From positions 1-32,874 of the forward strand of contig CAJQNR010000168.1 in the NCBI GenBank assembly GCA_905479715.1: a DNA stretch of 32,874 bases, written 5' to 3'. Source of the stretch: an uncultured Sphingorhabdus sp. (lineage in GTDB: Bacteria; Pseudomonadota; Alphaproteobacteria; Sphingomonadales; Sphingomonadaceae). Below are positions 1,626 to 7,044 of the stretch, piece after piece. A model generated the notes under the pieces. The model did no database searches. It saw only the letters and a list, made by a program, of their open reading frames with translations, and had not been told where the DNA came from. The number at the start of each line of letters is the position of its first letter. Position 1 is the stretch's first letter. The position numbers were made by a program, and so were the translations under genes.

Positions 1626-1751
1626 TCAAATACCGCCACTGTCACTGCTAGCAACAATGCCCTGATCGCCTAGCTTGCGGCCACCATCGCGCTCAATCAC
1701 CAGATCGTTACCATCTCGATAGTCAATTGCCTTGCTGTTGCACGCTATGCG
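1626..1751 (-). pseudogene. Possible frameshifted continuation of the 36-residue GG-leader gene
   Basis: In a frame shifted relative to the small gene at 1723-1833 there are 41 open codons ending in TGA at 1626-1628. The translation contains AIDYRDGNDLVIERDGG and RKLGDQGIVASSDSGGI, which look like real protein (balanced charged and hydrophobic residues, Asp/Gly turns) and not like random antisense. The two frames overlap between about 1723 and 1751, so one indel there would join them into a protein of roughly 65-70 residues, similar in size to the neighbouring 63-residue gene. There is no start codon or ribosome site of its own. This is inference from composition only; I recognise no family. 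Confidence 0.3.
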
Positions 1752-1833
1752 CTAGTTCGTGCGCTGCACCGCCGGTGACTTGGTCGAGTTCAGCTCCGTT
1801 CAGCGCTTCGGTGCTTTTCTTCTTATCAGACAT
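1723..1833 (-). CDS. Double-glycine-leader mini-protein (36 aa)
   Basis: This short frame begins MSDKKKSTEALNGAELDQVT and continues GGAAHELAHSVQQQGN before TGA. The first 23 residues parallel the neighbour at 1906-2097: both start M-S/T-D-K-K and both carry ELDQVTGGA, the form of a double-glycine leader (acidic helix with Glu-Leu, hydrophobic positions, then Gly-Gly) cut by C39-type peptidases during export. The remaining 13 residues include HELAH, which matches the HExxH zinc motif, followed by SVQQ as in DUF4157 (eCIS core) proteins; in so short a peptide this may be chance. The upstream GAAGA is only a weak ribosome site. The gene lies 72 bases downstream of its sister in the same direction. 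The frame may be a shortened remnant, because a protein-like continuation lies in another frame (1626-1751). No peptidase, ABC exporter or modifying enzyme is in the window. Confidence 0.5.
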   Translation of the reverse strand: MSDKKKSTEALNGAELDQVTGGAAHELAHSVQQQGN

Positions 1834-1905
1834 GATAAGTTCTTCGCAAAGGCACTAGCAACCTCATGCACCGGGATCGGTATTGTTAGCCGTGATGCTT
1901 GATCA

Positions 1906-2097
1906 TCACTGACCTCCACCGCCGGTTTGGAAAGATTTGATCTCTACATTTTGGAGAGTAATCTTATATTTGCTCGTACCGGGATCAACACTGGTTGCCT
2001 TCAATTTGCCTGCACCGCCAGTTACCTGATCCAGCTCGTTTTCTTCAAGTTCGACTGCGCCAGCCTTAGTGATCTTATCGTCTTTCTTATCGGTCAT
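1906..2097 (-). CDS. Double-glycine-leader small protein with Hcp-like tail (63 aa)
   Basis: A 63-residue frame with a good ribosome site (AAGGA at 2106-2110, 8-base spacer). The N-terminal 29 residues are a charged leader: MTDKKDDKITKAGAVELEEN, then ELDQVTGGA with the Gly-Gly cut site. The remaining part, about 34 residues, contains KYKITLQNVEIKSFQTGGGG. This pattern (aromatic, alternating beta strand, then Ser/Gly-rich turn) resembles, from memory, the strand of T6SS Hcp proteins reading roughly YLIITLKEVLVSSVSTGG. It could be a ribosomally made exported peptide, a truncated GG-leader Hcp-like protein, or the remnant of a longer gene. The sister gene at 1723-1833 shares the leader. The surroundings are AT-richer and repeat-laden, which fits horizontal or relaxed sequence. 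Function unknown; the coding assignment is fairly secure, the homology is inference. Confidence 0.65.
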   Translation of the reverse strand: MTDKKDDKITKAGAVELEENELDQVTGGAGKLKATSVDPGTSKYKITLQNVEIKSFQTGGGGQ

Positions 2098-2177
2098 CGC
2101 TATTGTCCTTGGTTAGGATGTTGCTTGCAGACCCGTTATTCATCGCGTTACTCTATTCGAGGGTGCGCCACATCACA

Positions 2178-2199: not shown

Positions 2200-2416
2200 G
2201 GAAGCACAACATGCTGTTTTTTAATGCAGAAAATATAGGAAAAAAACGACGTACGCTGAGAAATTTATGGACTTGGTTCCTTGAATGCGATCCGCGACAC
2301 GCTAGACCCGCCGGCAAGATCACCACCTAACGCAAGATGCATATTGACCCCGTTTGTCTCATTCGCGGAGGGTGGACGTCTTGATGGGCTGTGCGTGGAG
2401 GCTGATGACAGCTTTT

Positions 2417-2440
2417 CGCTTTAGGCACCCAAAAGCAGAC
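2417..2440. repeat. Dispersed repeat, copy 4
   Basis: CGCTTTAGG and AAAAGCAGAC match the two halves of copy 1 (370-390), with three extra bases in the middle. A further half copy, GTCCGCTTTCAGGA, follows at 2490-2503 just downstream of the dedA stop codon (minus strand). Confidence 0.4.
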
Positions 2441-2535
2441 AGGTAACTAACCACCCACTTGCTGCCAGTGAAAACAACCAGGGTTAGCGTCCGCTTTCAG
2501 GACTGAACGAACACCTTCGGTTCGCCTGGCCCGCC

Positions 2536-3138
2536 TCACCCCTCACTCGGCCGCCAGAAAATAATCCGCCAGACATAGACCACCACCAGCAACCCGATCA
2601 CACCCAGTGACACCGGCCCGAGATATTGCCCGATATCGTCGATATTCTGCTGCAGCATATATCCGGCATAGACCAAAGCGCTGTTCCAGACCGCGGCGCC
2701 GGCGCTGGTGGCGAGGATGAAGCGTTTGTGCGACATGCCGAACAGGCCGGCGGGCACGGAAATCATCGTGCGGATATTGGGGATGAAGCGGGCGACGAAA
2801 ACCACCCACTGACCGTAATTGTCAAAAATCCGGTCGATCCGGTTGACCGTTGCGACATCGAGCGTCAGCCAGCGGCCATGTTTGCGGACAAAGGCGCGAA
2901 GGTCGTCCTCGTTCCAGTGGCGGCCGAGCATGAACCAGACATAATTGCCGATGACCGAACCGATCGTGCCGACCAGCACCAGCCATGCCGGGTGGAAAGT
3001 CCCATGCCCAACGCCGACGCCGCCCAGCCCCATGATCAGCTCGGACGGGATTGGCGGAAAGATATTTTCCAGCGCCATCAGCAGAGCGATGGCCCAATAG
3101 CCGCCCTGCTCGATCAGGTCTGTGACCCAGCTGCTCAT
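2536..3138 (-). CDS. DedA family membrane protein
   Basis: A 200-residue inner-membrane protein of the DedA/SNARE-associated (PF09335) family, whose members are linked to flipping of undecaprenyl phosphate or phospholipids and to membrane homeostasis. Visible signatures are ENIFPPIPSELIM (about residues 24-36, the conserved acidic/proline re-entrant segment) and VARFIPNIRTMISVPAG (about 115-131, the FxRFxPxxR motif). Hydrophobic segments flank these, with a C-terminal helix LGVIGLLVVVYVWRIIF. The length is normal for the family. It follows gshB by 21 bases on the same strand, so the two are probably co-transcribed. The ribosome site is weak. The specific substrate cannot be told from sequence. 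Confidence 0.9.
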   Translation of the reverse strand: MSSWVTDLIEQGGYWAIALLMALENIFPPIPSELIMGLGGVGVGHGTFHPAWLVLVGTIGSVIGNYVWFMLGRHWNEDDLRAFVRKHGRWLTLDVATVNRIDRIFDNYGQWVVFVARFIPNIRTMISVPAGLFGMSHKRFILATSAGAAVWNSALVYAGYMLQQNIDDIGQYLGPVSLGVIGLLVVVYVWRIIFWRPSEG

Positions 3139-3159
3139 CTTGCGCTGCCCGGCGCGGAT

Positions 3160-4116
3160 CTATTGCGCCGCAAGCCGCCGCTCGATCGCATCCCAGATCA
3201 TGCCCGACGTATCGGTGCCGTTGAAATTGTCGATCGCAACGATGCCGGTCGGCGAGGTCACGTTGATTTCGGTCAGCCATTTGCCGCCGATCACGTCGAT
3301 ACCGACGAAGATCAGGCCGAGCCGTTTGAGGTCAGGCCCCATTGCCGCGCAGATTTCCTTCTCGCGCTCGGTCAGCTCCGCCGCCTCGGCATAGCCGCCC
3401 TGCGCGAGATTGCTGCGAAACTCGCCTTCGCCGGGCTTGCGATTGATCGCGCCGGCGACTTCGCCGTCGACCAGCACGATACGTTTGTCGCCCTGATGCA
3501 CTTCGGGAAGGAAGGGCTGGACCATATGCGGTTCCGGCCAGGTCTGGTTGAACACTTCGAACAGGGCGCTGAGATTGCTGCCGTCTTCGGGCACCAGGAA
3601 GATCGCCTTGCCGCCATTGCCGTGCAGCGGCTTGACCACCACCCCGCCATGTTCGGCCTGGAACGCGCGCACTTCGTCGAGATCGCGGGTGATCAGGGTT
3701 GGCGGCATGAACTGGGCGTAATCGAGCACATAGACTTTCTCCGGCGCGTTGCGGACGGAGACGGGATTGTTGACCACCAGAGTCTCCCTCTCGATCCGCT
3801 CGAGCAAATGGGTCGCAGTGATATAGCCGACGTGGAATGGCGGGTCCTGTCGCATCAGCACGACATCGACATCGCTGCCGAGATCGAGCTTTACCGGATC
3901 ACCAAAAGTGAAATGGTCGCCCTTGACCGGCTGCACCGTCACCGGATGGGCGGGCGTAGTGAGACGGCCATTGGCTTGCAGGGTCAGGCCCTTCACATCA
4001 TAGTGAAATATCTCGTGGCCGCGTTTCTGGGCAGCGAGCATCAGCGCGAAGCTGCTGTCTCCGGCGATATTCACGCTTTCCATCGGGTCCATCTGTACGG
4101 CGATTTTCAGAGTCAT
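3160..4116 (-). CDS. gshB: Glutathione synthase
   Basis: Catalyses the ATP-dependent joining of gamma-glutamylcysteine and glycine, the second step of glutathione synthesis in the cytoplasm. The 318-residue protein has the family's N-terminal domain (KIAVQMDPMESVNIAGDSSF), the MRQDPPFHVGYITATHLLE segment, and an ATP-grasp domain (VVVKPLHGNGGKAIFLV, then VPEDG), ending with LTEINVTSPTGI, where Glu and Asn bind metal. An ATG at 4122 is also in frame, but AAGGA (4123-4127) abuts it directly; the ATG at 4116 gives a normal 6-base spacer, so I chose that. It is the third gene of the minus-strand set rsmI-yraN-gshB-dedA, although the 280-base gap before it contains repeats and could separate transcripts. 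Confidence 0.95.
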   Translation of the reverse strand: MTLKIAVQMDPMESVNIAGDSSFALMLAAQKRGHEIFHYDVKGLTLQANGRLTTPAHPVTVQPVKGDHFTFGDPVKLDLGSDVDVVLMRQDPPFHVGYITATHLLERIERETLVVNNPVSVRNAPEKVYVLDYAQFMPPTLITRDLDEVRAFQAEHGGVVVKPLHGNGGKAIFLVPEDGSNLSALFEVFNQTWPEPHMVQPFLPEVHQGDKRIVLVDGEVAGAINRKPGEGEFRSNLAQGGYAEAAELTEREKEICAAMGPDLKRLGLIFVGIDVIGGKWLTEINVTSPTGIVAIDNFNGTDTSGMIWDAIERRLAAQ

Positions 4117-4197
4117 TTGCATTCCTTAGATATTTTCAAACCCGCTTACTGTTCGCATCCAGCCTAGTCGAGACACATTGGCATTGCGGAACCTGTC

Positions 4198-4215
4198 TCT
4201 CGACTTCGCTCGAGA
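4198..4215. repeat. Short hairpin repeat TCTCGA-loop-TCGAGA
   Basis: TCTCGA and TCGAGA pair around CTTCGC, followed by CGAACGG. This is one of several small hairpin motifs in the gshB-yraN gap and resembles the dispersed TTCGACnnnGAACG-type repeats seen in sphingomonad intergenic DNA. Confidence 0.5.
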
Positions 4216-4312
4216 CGAACGGGGGAAGCAGGTTTCTAGCCATTCATCCCGCTCTTGTCGAAGGGCGTTTTGGTTTAGCGCGGGAAAGGAAAAGTTCGAT
4301 CCGATCTCCGTC

Positions 4313-4333
4313 CGTCCTGAGCCTGTCGAAGGA
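4313..4333. repeat. Dispersed 21-base repeat, inverted relative to 4807-4827
   Basis: The 21 bases beginning CGTCCTGAGCCTGTCGAAGG are the exact reverse complement of 4807-4827. The two copies flank yraN in opposite orientation, 473 bases apart. The motif is a common intergenic repeat of sphingomonads (established from general knowledge; not searched here). Confidence 0.75.
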
Positions 4334-4396
4334 TGGCTCCAGTCGGAGAGGCGTGGTTCGGCGGGCTTACCACCAACGGCAGGAAGCAAAATTGCC

Positions 4397-4750
4397 TCAG
4401 AATCCGTGCCAGACATTGGGGAGATGGATCGGCATGCGTCGGGGTGCGACCAAGATCACGTCGATCCGCGCGTCTTCGCCCTTGGTGCAATATTGCGGAT
4501 AGAGGATTTCCACCGCATCGGCGACGCGGCGGAGCCGTTTCAGATCGATCGACTGTTCCAGATCTTGCAGCTTCGTGCGCGCCTTGACCTCGACGAAGGC
4601 GACCAGGCCGCCGCGTTTGGCGACCAGATCAACCTCGCCGCGCGGGGTCCGCACCCGTTCGGCCAATATCCGCCAGCCTTTCAGGCGCAGGAAGCGGGCG
4701 GCGGTCTTTTCGGCCTGGCGGCCGCGTTTCTCGGCAGCCTCGCGTTTCAT
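4397..4750 (-). CDS. yraN: YraN family (UPF0102) nuclease-like protein
   Basis: A 117-residue protein with the YraN signature: GRQAEKTAARFLRLKGWRIL (residues 10-29), then TPRGEVDLVA and VAFVEVKART. The GEVDL...EVK pattern is the metal-binding core of restriction-endonuclease-like folds (Holliday-junction-resolvase type), but the biological role is not settled. The gene sits next to rsmI, a neighbourhood also seen in enterobacteria (rsmI, lpoA, yraN), with the LpoA-like gene here divergent on the other side of rsmI. It is bracketed by an inverted pair of the 21-base dispersed repeat. Confidence 0.9.
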   Translation of the reverse strand: MKREAAEKRGRQAEKTAARFLRLKGWRILAERVRTPRGEVDLVAKRGGLVAFVEVKARTKLQDLEQSIDLKRLRRVADAVEILYPQYCTKGEDARIDVILVAPRRMPIHLPNVWHGF

Positions 4751-4806
4751 TCAGGCGGTGCCGGATGGGCTGGATTTGTCGCACCGGAGGTCTTCGCTTG
4801 GCCAGG

Positions 4807-4827
4807 TCCTTCGACAGGCTCAGGACG
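4807..4827. repeat. Dispersed 21-base repeat, second copy
   Basis: TCCTTCGACAGGCTCAGGAC plus G, followed by AACGG, is the exact reverse complement of 4313-4333. It lies in the 100-base gap between rsmI and yraN, so it may be transcribed within that operon. Confidence 0.75.
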
Positions 4828-4850
4828 AACGGTGTGGAGGCGGTAAGCGC

Positions 4851-5690
4851 TCATTTTTCCGACTTCCAGCGATTGGCCAGTTCGTAGAGCGCCTTGCGGT
4901 CGGTGTTGAAGGCTTTCGCCACCTCGCCGGCCGCTTTTGACGCCGGCAGCCGGACCAGGGCTTCGCGCAGCGCCGCCTCGATATCGGCTTCGCTCGCGGC
5001 TTCCGGCGCGCCCGGTGGGCCGATGATGACGACGATCTCGCCTTTCGGCTTTTCCGCAGCATAGCGGGTGGCAAGCTCGCTCAGCGAACCGGATACCGCT
5101 TCCTCGAACCGCTTGGTGATTTCGCGTACGACCGCAGCCTTGCGGTCCCCCAGCACAGCCAGCGAGTCGGCCAGCATGGCGCCCAGCCGCGAACCGTTTT
5201 CGTAGAAGATCAGGCTGGCGTTGAGCGTCTTCAATGCGGTCAGTGATTCGCTGCGGGCCTTGGTCTTGCTGGGCAGAAAGCCTTCGAAAAGAAACCGGTC
5301 GCTGGGCAGGCCCGACAGGGTCAGCGCGGCAATCGCGGCGCTCGGGCCGGGAATCGTCGTGACATACAGCCCCGCCGCCTGCGCATCGCGGACCAGCTTG
5401 TAACCGGGGTCGGAGATCAAAGGCGTTCCTGCATCGCTCACCAGTGCGACAATTTTACATCGCACCGCGTCCAAAATAGCATCGCGATCAGCCGCCGACT
5501 TATGGTCATTATAGACCATCATCTTTGACTTTTTACCGATATGATTCAACAATTTACCGGTGACTCTTGTATCCTCGACCAAGATGATATCGGCGCGGGC
5601 GAGGGTTTCCTCGGCGCGGCGGGACAAATCTCCAAGGTTGCCGATTGGGGTGGCGACGATATAGAGACCGGATTGGGCAGGAGCAGACAT
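4851..5690 (-). CDS. rsmI: 16S rRNA (cytidine1402-2'-O)-methyltransferase
   Basis: A 279-residue SAM-dependent methyltransferase of the tetrapyrrole-methylase fold that modifies C1402 in the ribosomal P site. Visible motifs are LYIVATPIGNLGDLSRRAEE (residues 9-28), ILVEDTRVTGKLLNHIG, ALVSDAGTPLISDPGYKLV (SAM loop) and IPGPSAAIAALTLSGLPSDR, then FEGFLPSK and the C-terminal GEIVVIIG strand. The length is normal. The start codon at 5690 lies directly against the ATG of the plus-strand lipoprotein gene at 5691 (CATATG), so the promoter must lie inside that gene. First gene of the minus-strand set with yraN, gshB and dedA. Confidence 0.96.
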   Translation of the reverse strand: MSAPAQSGLYIVATPIGNLGDLSRRAEETLARADIILVEDTRVTGKLLNHIGKKSKMMVYNDHKSAADRDAILDAVRCKIVALVSDAGTPLISDPGYKLVRDAQAAGLYVTTIPGPSAAIAALTLSGLPSDRFLFEGFLPSKTKARSESLTALKTLNASLIFYENGSRLGAMLADSLAVLGDRKAAVVREITKRFEEAVSGSLSELATRYAAEKPKGEIVVIIGPPGAPEAASEADIEAALREALVRLPASKAAGEVAKAFNTDRKALYELANRWKSEK

Positions 5691-6884
5691 ATGACGGTCA
5701 TGGCAGACAAGCTATATCAAGGACAAGATCAAACCCGCAGGCGCGGCTTTTTGAAATGGGCGGGCGTATCCGCATTCGTCCTGCTGGCCGGTTGCGAAAC
5801 CATGGTTCCGCGCGGTGCCGAACCGGCGCCAACCGCCACCCCGACACAGCCATCGGTGACCACCGGATTGCCCGACGACCAGAAACATCACCGCATTGCC
5901 CTGCTCGTGCCGCTATCCGGCAAGAACGCCGGCGTCGGCCAGTCGCTCGCCAATGCCACCACCATGGCGCTGCTCGATACCAAGGCGGAGAATATCCGCA
6001 TGACCAGCTATGACACGGCCAAGGGCGTGACCGCGGCGGCGCAAAGCGCCATCCGCGATGGCAACAAGCTGATCATCGGTCCGTTGCTCAGCGACAATGT
6101 CGTCGCGACCGCCAATATTGCCCGGCCGGCCGGCGTTCCGATATTGAGCTTCTCGAACGACAGCGGCGTTGCCGGCAACAATGTCTATATTCTCGGCCAT
6201 ATCCCGTCCCAGTCGATCAACCGGGTCGTCGCCTATGCCAAATCGAAAGGCATGACGCGCTTTGCGGCGCTGGTGCCCAATGGCGTCTACGGTCAGCGGG
6301 CATCCTCGACCTTGCTGCGCAGCGTGAAGGATGTCGGCGGCACAGTGGTGTCGATCCAGACCTTCAACCGCGATTCCAAGTCGATCGAGGCCGCGACCAA
6401 GAAGCTTCCGCAAAATGGTGATTTCGAAGCGGTTCTGCTGGCCGACAATGGCGACATGGCGATCAAGGCGGCCCCCTATATTCGCAAAAATGCCAGCGGC
6501 ACGGCAAAAATCCTCGGCACCGACCTGTGGAACACAAGCAGCAATCTGGCCGGCGCGCCCTCGATGCGCGGTGCCTGGTTCGCCAGCGTTTCCGACAGCC
6601 TGTACAAGCAATATGCCGACAAATATCGTGCCCGCTACGGCAAGGCGCCGTTCCGGCTCTCGAGCCTCGGCTATGATTCGGTGTTGCTGACGGTCAAGGT
6701 CGCCCGCGACTGGAAAGTGGGATCGCCCTTTCCGATCAACAAGCTGACCGACAAGGGCGGCTTCATCGGCCTCGACGGTGTCTTCCGGTTCAAGGCCGAC
6801 GGCATTTCGGAACGGGCACTGGAAGTCCAGGAAATTCGCAGCGGCAGCTTTGCGGTGGTGGATCCGGCGCCAAAGGGTTTTTGA
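5691..6884 (+). CDS. Penicillin-binding protein activator, LpoA/LppC-like lipoprotein
   Basis: A 397-residue lipoprotein: basic N-terminus with a twin Arg (QTRRRGFLKWAG), hydrophobic segment and lipobox LLAGC near residue 39, then a Thr/Pro-rich linker. The body is a periplasmic-binding-protein type I fold beginning RIALLVPLSGKNAGVGQSLA, with IIGPLLSDNV, PILSFSND, GMTRFAALVPNGVYGQRASS and a C-terminal SLGYDSVLLT. This matches the YraM/LpoA (PF04348-like) group, outer-membrane lipoproteins that activate the peptidoglycan synthase PBP1A, and its position beside rsmI and yraN agrees. It lacks the N-terminal TPR domain of enterobacterial LpoA. The start at 5691 has AGGAG at 5679-5683 with a 7-base spacer; an ATG at 5700 is an alternative. 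An ABC-type amino-acid receptor is less likely. Confidence 0.85.
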   Translation: MTVMADKLYQGQDQTRRRGFLKWAGVSAFVLLAGCETMVPRGAEPAPTATPTQPSVTTGLPDDQKHHRIALLVPLSGKNAGVGQSLANATTMALLDTKAENIRMTSYDTAKGVTAAAQSAIRDGNKLIIGPLLSDNVVATANIARPAGVPILSFSNDSGVAGNNVYILGHIPSQSINRVVAYAKSKGMTRFAALVPNGVYGQRASSTLLRSVKDVGGTVVSIQTFNRDSKSIEAATKKLPQNGDFEAVLLADNGDMAIKAAPYIRKNASGTAKILGTDLWNTSSNLAGAPSMRGAWFASVSDSLYKQYADKYRARYGKAPFRLSSLGYDSVLLTVKVARDWKVGSPFPINKLTDKGGFIGLDGVFRFKADGISERALEVQEIRSGSFAVVDPAPKGF

Positions 6885-6922
6885 CGGAACCGCTTCCTTA
6901 CCGACTGGAAAAATAGAAATCT

Positions 6923-7000
6923 CGTCGTCCCGAACTTGTTTCAGGACCCCTTGATTTAGCGCATTGCCGTTGGAGGTCCTGAAACAAGTTCAGGATGACG
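6923..7000. repeat. Large inverted repeat between convergent genes
   Basis: The left arm (6923-6950, containing GAACTTGTTTCAGGACC) and right arm (6972-7000, containing GGTCCTGAAACAAGTTC) are nearly perfect reverse complements around a loop of about 21 bases. A related pair lies in the atpA-atpG gap. The element belongs to the GTCATCCTGAACTTGTTTCAGGA family of sphingomonad intergenic repeats. It sits between the convergent lipoprotein and transaldolase genes and could stop transcription in both directions, although there is no T-run. Confidence 0.8.
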
Positions 7001-7044
7001 GTTTAATTCTGGATAACGATCAATTCTGGATAGTGATTGTCAGA

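Follow-up and report, generated by a model that had tools for sequence, protein, structure and literature searches.

The window analysed here, a stretch of 32,874 nucleotides on one contig (C168; CAJQNR010000168.1) of an uncultured Sphingorhabdus sp., carries near its start two small genes, P0001 and P0002, whose products look like precursors of exported double-glycine peptides. The first-pass annotation had described two adjacent same-strand genes of 63 and 36 residues that share a leader and diverge after the Gly-Gly, and our reading of the open reading frames (ORFs) confirms this exactly; an M-T/S-DKK start and an ELDQVTGGA leader end are common to both, and the cores that follow are unrelated. 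The pair and its immediate surroundings comprise the following features.

1906..2097, minus strand: P0001, a 63-residue precursor with a long-form double-glycine leader (residues 1-28) and a 35-residue core
2014..2097, minus strand: the leader of P0001, MTDKKDDKITKAGAVELEENELDQVTGG, with the predicted C39 cut after Gly-Gly
1909..2013, minus strand: the core of P0001, of which residues 7-35 align to positions 90-118 of the Hcp profile
1834..1905, minus strand: the 72-base intergenic spacer, with a weak Shine-Dalgarno-like GAAGAA ahead of P0002
1723..1833, minus strand: P0002, a 36-residue precursor with a short-form leader (residues 1-22) and a 14-residue core, AAHELAHSVQQQGN
1726..1767, minus strand: the core of P0002, which aligns to positions 65-78/79 of eCIS_core (HExxH...QQ), below the family cut-off
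2098..2115, minus strand: the stretch directly upstream of P0001, with AAGGA as a plausible ribosome binding site

The leader pattern of C39 substrates consists of L-12, E-8, L-7, V/I-4, G-2 and G-1 ahead of the core. All six positions fit in both P0001 and P0002, and by this measure both are predicted to be double-glycine (C39-type) precursors. Across four genomes we count 44 such precursors, six of them in the source genome, and in the 43 covered by our tally (the 44th lies outside it) L-12, L-7 and V/I-4 are present in every leader, G-2 in 42, G-1 in 39 and E-8 in 37. A report on a cyanobacterial set (PMC3140520) gives the pattern in part. When the source genome, a 2.86 Mb draft in 189 contigs and 89.5% complete, was searched with P0001, four matches were returned: besides P0001 itself, there were three on contig C174, of which the strongest has an E-value of 1.8e-7 and 72% identity over 29 residues; since the same leader is recovered on C174, the leader resemblance is not due to chance. 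Three of the four C174 paralogues score 16.8, 18.0 and 13.7 bits with the bacteriocin signal TIGR01847 (cut-off 15.7 bits) and one is unlisted; P0001 scores 13.3 bits, below the cut-off, and P0002 is unlisted. The nitrile-hydratase-like and Nif11-like leader families TIGR03793 and TIGR03798 are listed neither for the window pair (at E<=1) nor for the four C174 precursors (at E<=0.1).

Beyond this genome the family is sparsely distributed. A profile of the six peptides of the source genome matches four of 98 genomes: the source genome itself, two others of the same genus (G009 and G021) and, weakly (E 0.079), G083, whose match we take to be unrelated; by this profile the family is present in three of 32 same-genus genomes. 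A profile of 35 peptides matches four of 397 genomes of the taxonomic family, the fourth being G405, Parasphingopyxis marina GrpM-11, after the source genome, G009 and G021, while among 385 class-level and 249 phylum-level genomes it matches the source genome alone, the samples for family, order, class and phylum overlapping. Homologues of the leader peptides, for which the first-pass annotation proposed to search, are therefore present in Sphingomonadales. Most are encoded in tandem arrays within an NHLM-type operon. By the leader profile, G009 has 11 precursors between TolC and a putative modification enzyme and one on another contig, and G021 has 10 in the same position and another past TolC, on the opposite strand; P. 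marina has eight in the array, two after the cNMP gene and five orphans at four loci. As all three genomes carry precursors apart from the array, in two of them far from it as with the window pair, orphans such as the window pair are usual for this family. The long form of the leader (KITKAGAVELEEN...) occurs in P0001, in L007:11500 on C174 and in four P. marina peptides, with L047:9348 showing the same form. The arrays of G009 and G021 agree both in their peptide types and in how these are ordered, save that the NAWP type is absent in G021, and for this reason we set aside a reading of the arrays as a 'memory' of protein fragments.

The window itself was said to contain no peptidase-transporter or modification enzyme; by eye no transporter, C39 peptidase or obvious modification enzyme is seen among its ORFs of at least 120 residues, nor anything further belonging to the peptide system. 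An export partner had been expected elsewhere, and there is indeed a C39-peptidase ATP-binding cassette (ABC) transporter on C174 of the same genome, its C39 domain at C174:6199-6582 scoring 119.8 bits (cut-off 22). It lies in an NHLM-type operon (locus L007) that runs in one direction through a TolC-like protein, three double-glycine precursors, a 367-residue enzyme, HlyD, the C39-ABC protein, a second ABC protein, a cyclic nucleotide (cNMP)-binding protein, a fourth precursor and a methyltransferase. HlyD matches TIGR03794 with 263.9 bits (cut-off 156.2), the C39-ABC protein TIGR03796 with 910.1 (853.3) and the second ABC protein TIGR03797 with 692.4, just under the cut-off of 709.4 and aligned over positions 14-686/686; with two of its three parts over their cut-offs and the third 17 bits under, the three-gene exporter is assigned by NCBIfam to the NHLP/NHLM systems. 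The TolC-like protein scores 279 bits with TIGR01845 (cut-off 210.05) and the cNMP protein 103.6 bits with TIGR03896, under its cut-off of 161.05. No immunity gene is found among the annotated proteins of the operon, and no search aimed at immunity genes was made. Gene order is kept at L038, L039 and, in P. marina, L047, where the C39-ABC copies are 81, 81 and 76% identical to that on C174. A further, truncated copy is present at L059; its contig bears the label Hyphomicrobiales, and its C39-ABC protein shares 91% identity with that of the source genome. A serine-recombinase-like ORF, recognised by eye, stands near the G021 operon (L039:826-2442, minus strand) and may bear on the patchy spread of the system.

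C39 transporters cut Gly-Gly leaders during export, as PMC2887384 and PMC3140520 describe. Given the leader type and this known action, it is very probable that P0001 and P0002 would be exported and cut by the C174 machine. The proposal of C39-processed peptides with variable cores is supported in that the genome has such a transporter and the homologues combine a conserved leader with a variable core; export is, in our view, well supported by the sequences. The C39 peptidase search of the source genome gave two matches over the cut-off, one being that on C174 and the other on C135. The latter is without an ABC domain (L008, C135:18000-26182; 5661-7035 minus, 4043-5545 plus), and its neighbours are a secreted protein with DEELNELRGG and an outer-membrane-like protein of 500 residues; from the ORFs we presume this to be a Fap-type fibre locus.

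For the 367-residue enzyme Pfam gives no family at E<=0.1, and NCBIfam a single weak match (E 0.027). The best PDB folds for its AlphaFold model (pLDDT 88.8) are 1xkn, a putative peptidyl-arginine deiminase (E 1.8e-12), and numerous agmatine deiminases. WAxD, GGN, HIDMF and Cys359 are kept in 21 aligned sequences, four of them sphingomonad, and HIDMF and Cys359, which are invariant, are presumably the active-site residues. The modelled fold thus makes this protein a deiminase-fold candidate for a modification enzyme. The enzyme alignment matches three of 396 genomes of the order. No relative was found with it in viral_contigs, and a viral origin is unsupported by that search. Members of this enzyme family also occur in cyanobacteria, Pontibacter, Lentzea, Algoriphagus and others (L048-L091), with no sphingomonad-type leader peptides within the fetched flanks; in a set of 46 loci of deiminase relatives, precursors recognised by the leader profile are confined to L046 and L047, both sphingomonad, and to L044, which is the same place as L047, and leaders of another kind would escape that profile. 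The methyltransferase lies beside long-leader precursors both on C174 (L007:11959-13341, with a MethyTransf_Reg domain) and in P. marina (L047:18411-19625), the two copies sharing 50% identity; none was found in the 20-kb stretches taken from G009 and G021, both without long-leader peptides. Coming from four genomes only, this is a lead towards a possible second modification.

The leaders of both window peptides are under constraint at the protein level. Between the leaders of P0001 and L007:11500 the proportion of synonymous differences (pS) is 0.83 and that of nonsynonymous differences (pN) 0.14, whereas their cores, being of different type, are not conserved (pN 0.55, pS 0.73); between P0002 and L007:3387 the leader gives pS 0.67 and pN 0.26 and the core, over 13 codons, pS 0.89 and pN 0.13. 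The protein letters of both leaders and of the P0002 core are therefore kept where silent sites are near saturation. For peptide pairs of G009 and G021, pN is below pS in nine of nine tested, leader and core alike. The 44 cores are hydrophilic, no 17-residue stretch exceeding a hydropathy of 1.28, and because none has a membrane-like stretch, a pore-forming bacteriocin of the ordinary kind does not suggest itself as the product and was set aside. Certain core ends recur, Gly-rich ones (e.g., ASGGGNGI) in 12 of the 44 and MERVFEDE or MERVFDDE in five.

Within the family, cores resemble short pieces of contractile injection systems. In a scan of 37 cores of at least 20 residues (38 had been collected, the 14-residue core of P0002 falling outside) against 24,736 Pfam families, seven families were matched: eCIS_core by five cores (best E 3.9e-6), Phage_T4_gp19 by two (0.016), DUF4438 by two (0.048), Tox-PAAR-like by two (1.3), and PG_binding_3 (0.021), Peptidase_M60 (0.039) and T6SS_HCP (0.17) by one each. 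Four of the seven belong to contractile injection systems, and eCIS_core is the one match that is strong taken singly. The 37 cores shuffled, with only their composition preserved, matched four unrelated families once each at E 0.016 to 0.22, so that, eCIS_core apart, what separates real from shuffled cores is the convergence of the real matches on related families, not better E-values. The families gp19, Hcp, PG-binding and DUF1559 had been guessed in writing ahead of the scan and then turned up, DUF1559 as an excerpt in an orphan P. marina core (E 3.5e-8, above cut-off). We had at first presumed KYIGETEKNL to be an AAA motif, QYNPET one of the contractile tube and VDGxxGP one of PG-binding; KYIGETEKNL was later matched, as ATPase, in proteins of extracellular contractile injection system (eCIS) or tail loci and VDGxxGP as a weak PG_binding_3, and QYNPET was unmatched as a tube motif. 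The top genome-wide match to eCIS_core (PF13699) is a precursor in all four genomes, and in three it exceeds the cut-off; P0002 is the second-best match in its genome, and its paralogue L007:3387 scores 27.8 bits, over the cut-off but over positions 58-77/79 only. One core matches the tail-tube chains 8bl4 (E 0.083) and 9r9h (E 0.088) in the PDB, plus an unrelated chain.

Profile comparisons point the same way for the tube proteins. With a profile of 12 alphaproteobacterial Hcp proteins, out of 21 matches, eight of 43 cores outscored every one of their own 1000 shuffles and a ninth was beaten once, the Hcp-like cores mapping to the start, middle and end of Hcp; P0001 is among the eight, none of its 1000 shuffles being as good. 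Across 21 control profiles, 0 to 3 of the 43 cores stood at 0/300 shuffles, against 11 for the Hcp profile, 20 of the controls being single sequences, weaker than a profile of 12. With gp19 as the profile, two of the 44 cores stood at 0/1000 shuffles and one at 1. We also compared the cores with 144 ORFs around gp19 genes, loci that were chosen by gp19 matches and are not proven eCIS throughout, and with 145 control ORFs, from which rows with precursor ORFs were dropped ahead of counting. Here cores match a tube protein (9e-5) and an eCIS ATPase (DSHDAYANLEVSHLK on DSHDRYANQEVSFLL, E 0.0078), and these two carry a result that we regard as suggestive; a smaller run of 64 ORFs had given seven matches at E<0.05 and none in three shuffled sets. 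We consider it likely that the injection-machine motifs are real at the level of the family, for which mimicry is fairly well supported, and reasonably probable that P0001 is truly Hcp-like.

The reading towards which we lean slightly is that the window pair are orphan precursors of a multi-peptide secretion system served by the C174 machine, with cores that would be mimics of injection machines. In this scheme the C39 domain would cut the precursors after Gly-Gly during export, HlyD and TolC would carry the cores outside the cell, and the deiminase-fold enzyme may modify arginines of other family members. The cores carry, as the statistics support for the family, short motifs of the Hcp and gp19 tube, the eCIS ATPase, the eCIS core domain and, less surely, PAAR-like proteins, plus a few other families, joined by Gly/Ser/Lys-rich linkers. 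Once released, the peptides might work as mimics, competing, for instance, at interfaces that are conserved in the injection machines or particles of neighbours. Interference with injection machines is the function we infer, and it is offered tentatively, as something we hold to be rather doubtful; its fuller form, an arsenal of part-deiminated, NHLM-exported strings of mimics (tube, ATPase, core domain, spike) that would disable or deflect the injection machines or tailed particles of rivals, is more doubtful again.

Several results weigh against mimicry or temper it for the window pair. Apart from eCIS_core, the real cores reach Pfam E-values (0.016 to 1.3) no better than those of the shuffles, and same-type cores of different species are not independent in the counts. 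Matches to DUF1559, PG_binding_3, DUF4438 and Peptidase_M60, together with weak ones of other cores to FG-GAP (0.015) and DNA_binding_1 (0.32), are to families outside injection machines. The excess in the 144-ORF comparison is modest, with 4 real, 1 control and 0, 0, 0, 0 and 4 shuffled matches at E<0.05, and 13, 3 and 1, 2, 1, 1 and 4 respectively at E<0.2. P0002 scores 13.8-14.9 bits with eCIS_core, under the cut-off of 22. The Hcp score of P0001 is 9.5 bits, the curated cut-off of PF05638 (23.5 bits) is not reached, and the likeness appears by the shuffle test only; its core is not among the best 32 rows against the eCIS and tail loci and has a match in control DNA at E 0.072. Because that core taken alone is unmatched in Pfam and in the PDB, the claim of mimicry for the window pair is tempered. 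Both window cores also lack arginine, which is present in 40 of the 44 cores, and deimination could therefore concern other family members only. In the PDB, six of eight cores searched were without match and one had three weak splicing-factor matches; in PHROGs there was one weak match for 10 cores; and a plasmid search left one peptide core unmatched and gave P0001 one unrelated weak match.

As to the genomic setting, the first-pass annotation had placed the pair in a lower-GC, repeat-rich interval beside a PEPxxWA protein, and each element is borne out. GC is 0.46-0.54 from about 300 to 2400, 0.62-0.66 before 450 and 0.55-0.63 from 2250 to 4050. The repeat TGTCCGCTTT (<=1 mismatch) has 10 copies in the window against 2.25 expected, five of them before position 2500; copies stand at 366, 476, 1333, 2432 and 2488, with five more. 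Positions 607-1263, next to the pair, encode a PEPxxWA-CTERM protein (52.0 bits against a cut-off of 35). The interval lies between a DedA gene and xerC. In 11 other same-genus genomes xerC is within the 1.5-kb flank of DedA in seven, with gaps of 24 to 1175 bases, and outside that flank in four; in the window 2188 bases separate the two genes, and the PEPxxWA gene and the pair lie between them. As blastn finds no match to 1264-2535 at any of the 11 loci, the pair lies in an accessory stretch. No excess of promoters was found, a further point against the reading we prefer: the two strands of 1250-2560 hold two promoter-like sites where 1.0 would be expected by chance, and one of the two, at 1861-1832 on the minus strand, is right at the start of P0002.

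This setting bears on whether the pair is functional at all. The two genes may be decaying duplicates stranded from the operon, P0002 in particular having been shortened from a copy of the L007:3387 type, with neither peptide being made; the 14-residue core of P0002 compares with 33 to 68 residues for the other 43, the stretch is unmatched in the 11 relatives, and no promoter rises above chance nearby. We think this unlikely, as both frames are intact, a plausible ribosome site precedes P0001, the leaders are constrained at the protein level and orphans occur in the other three genomes as well. A weightier alternative is that these are ordinary NHLM-type multi-peptide bacteriocins or signals, the likeness to injection machines being incidental, or a relic of the DNA out of which the cores arose, and irrelevant to function. 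Such systems typically have an NHLM operon with numerous variable precursors (PMC2887384, PMC3140520), part of the motif matches come from unrelated families, and most matches are weak singly; yet the cores are hydrophilic and lack membrane-like stretches, injection-machine families recur in the Pfam scan where shuffles give unrelated ones, and motif letters are kept between species. This account is a serious one, to which we give a chance somewhat below even.

The cores might, finally, be substrates or tags that dock into an injection machine of the same cell, an idea suggested by the origin of the motifs in tube, ATPase and core-domain proteins. We find no Hcp match even at E<=10 in any of the four genomes, eCIS_core matches above the cut-off are confined to the peptide arrays there, and gp19, tested by name in the source genome only, is without match in it. 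A machine of the cell's own is accordingly set aside as partner, and this explanation appears highly improbable. We return, then, to secretion of mimics by the C174 machine as the reading we prefer.

Several known systems share parts of this organisation. NHLM/NHLP systems (TIGR03794, TIGR03796, TIGR03797; Haft et al. 2010, PMC2887384) have the same three-gene C39 exporter and multi-copy Gly-Gly precursors, but here the leader is short and of class-II type, not a nitrile-hydratase or Nif11 leader, and the operon has a deiminase-fold protein and, among its annotated proteins, no thiazole/oxazole or lanthionine enzyme. Double-glycine peptides and class II bacteriocins (TIGR01847; PMC3140520) have the same leader pattern, variable cores and tandem precursors; by contrast, the present cores are hydrophilic and carry injection-machine motifs, and no immunity gene was recognised, none having been specifically searched for. 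An archaeal island (PMC6393860) likewise combines a C39 peptidase with a large number of Gly-Gly-leader proteins, which that paper interprets as bacteriocin-like or as quorum sensing; it differs in being archaeal, and in the text consulted DUF4157 is named in another context, not as a peptide core. Citrulassins, citrulline-containing ribosomally synthesised and post-translationally modified peptides, reportedly pair a deiminase (theirs a peptidylarginine deiminase) with peptide precursors in a similar way, but the peptides here are not lasso peptides and the putative enzyme is without a Pfam family. With contractile injection systems (eCIS, type VI secretion systems and phage tails) the family shares short Hcp, gp19 tube, ATPase, eCIS_core and, less surely, PAAR-like motifs; here these are excerpts behind an export leader, in four genomes without such a machine by the Hcp and eCIS_core searches. 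In the literature searched, outside which lie most subscription journals and preprints, no account of double-glycine peptides with such cores was found; the export system is already known and, as far as we have seen, the core type is not.

The usual interpretation of double-glycine peptides is as bacteriocins or signals, and what we describe is a rare, conserved sphingomonad set with hydrophilic cores resembling pieces of syringe-like weapons, accompanied by a deiminase-fold enzyme that Pfam does not name. The peptide system is defined and testable, one member being in a named isolate, Parasphingopyxis marina GrpM-11. Should the mimicry not be functional, the family would be an example of precursor cores built from pieces of other proteins; should it be functional, these peptides would represent an exported defence against injection machines and a possible source of inhibitors.
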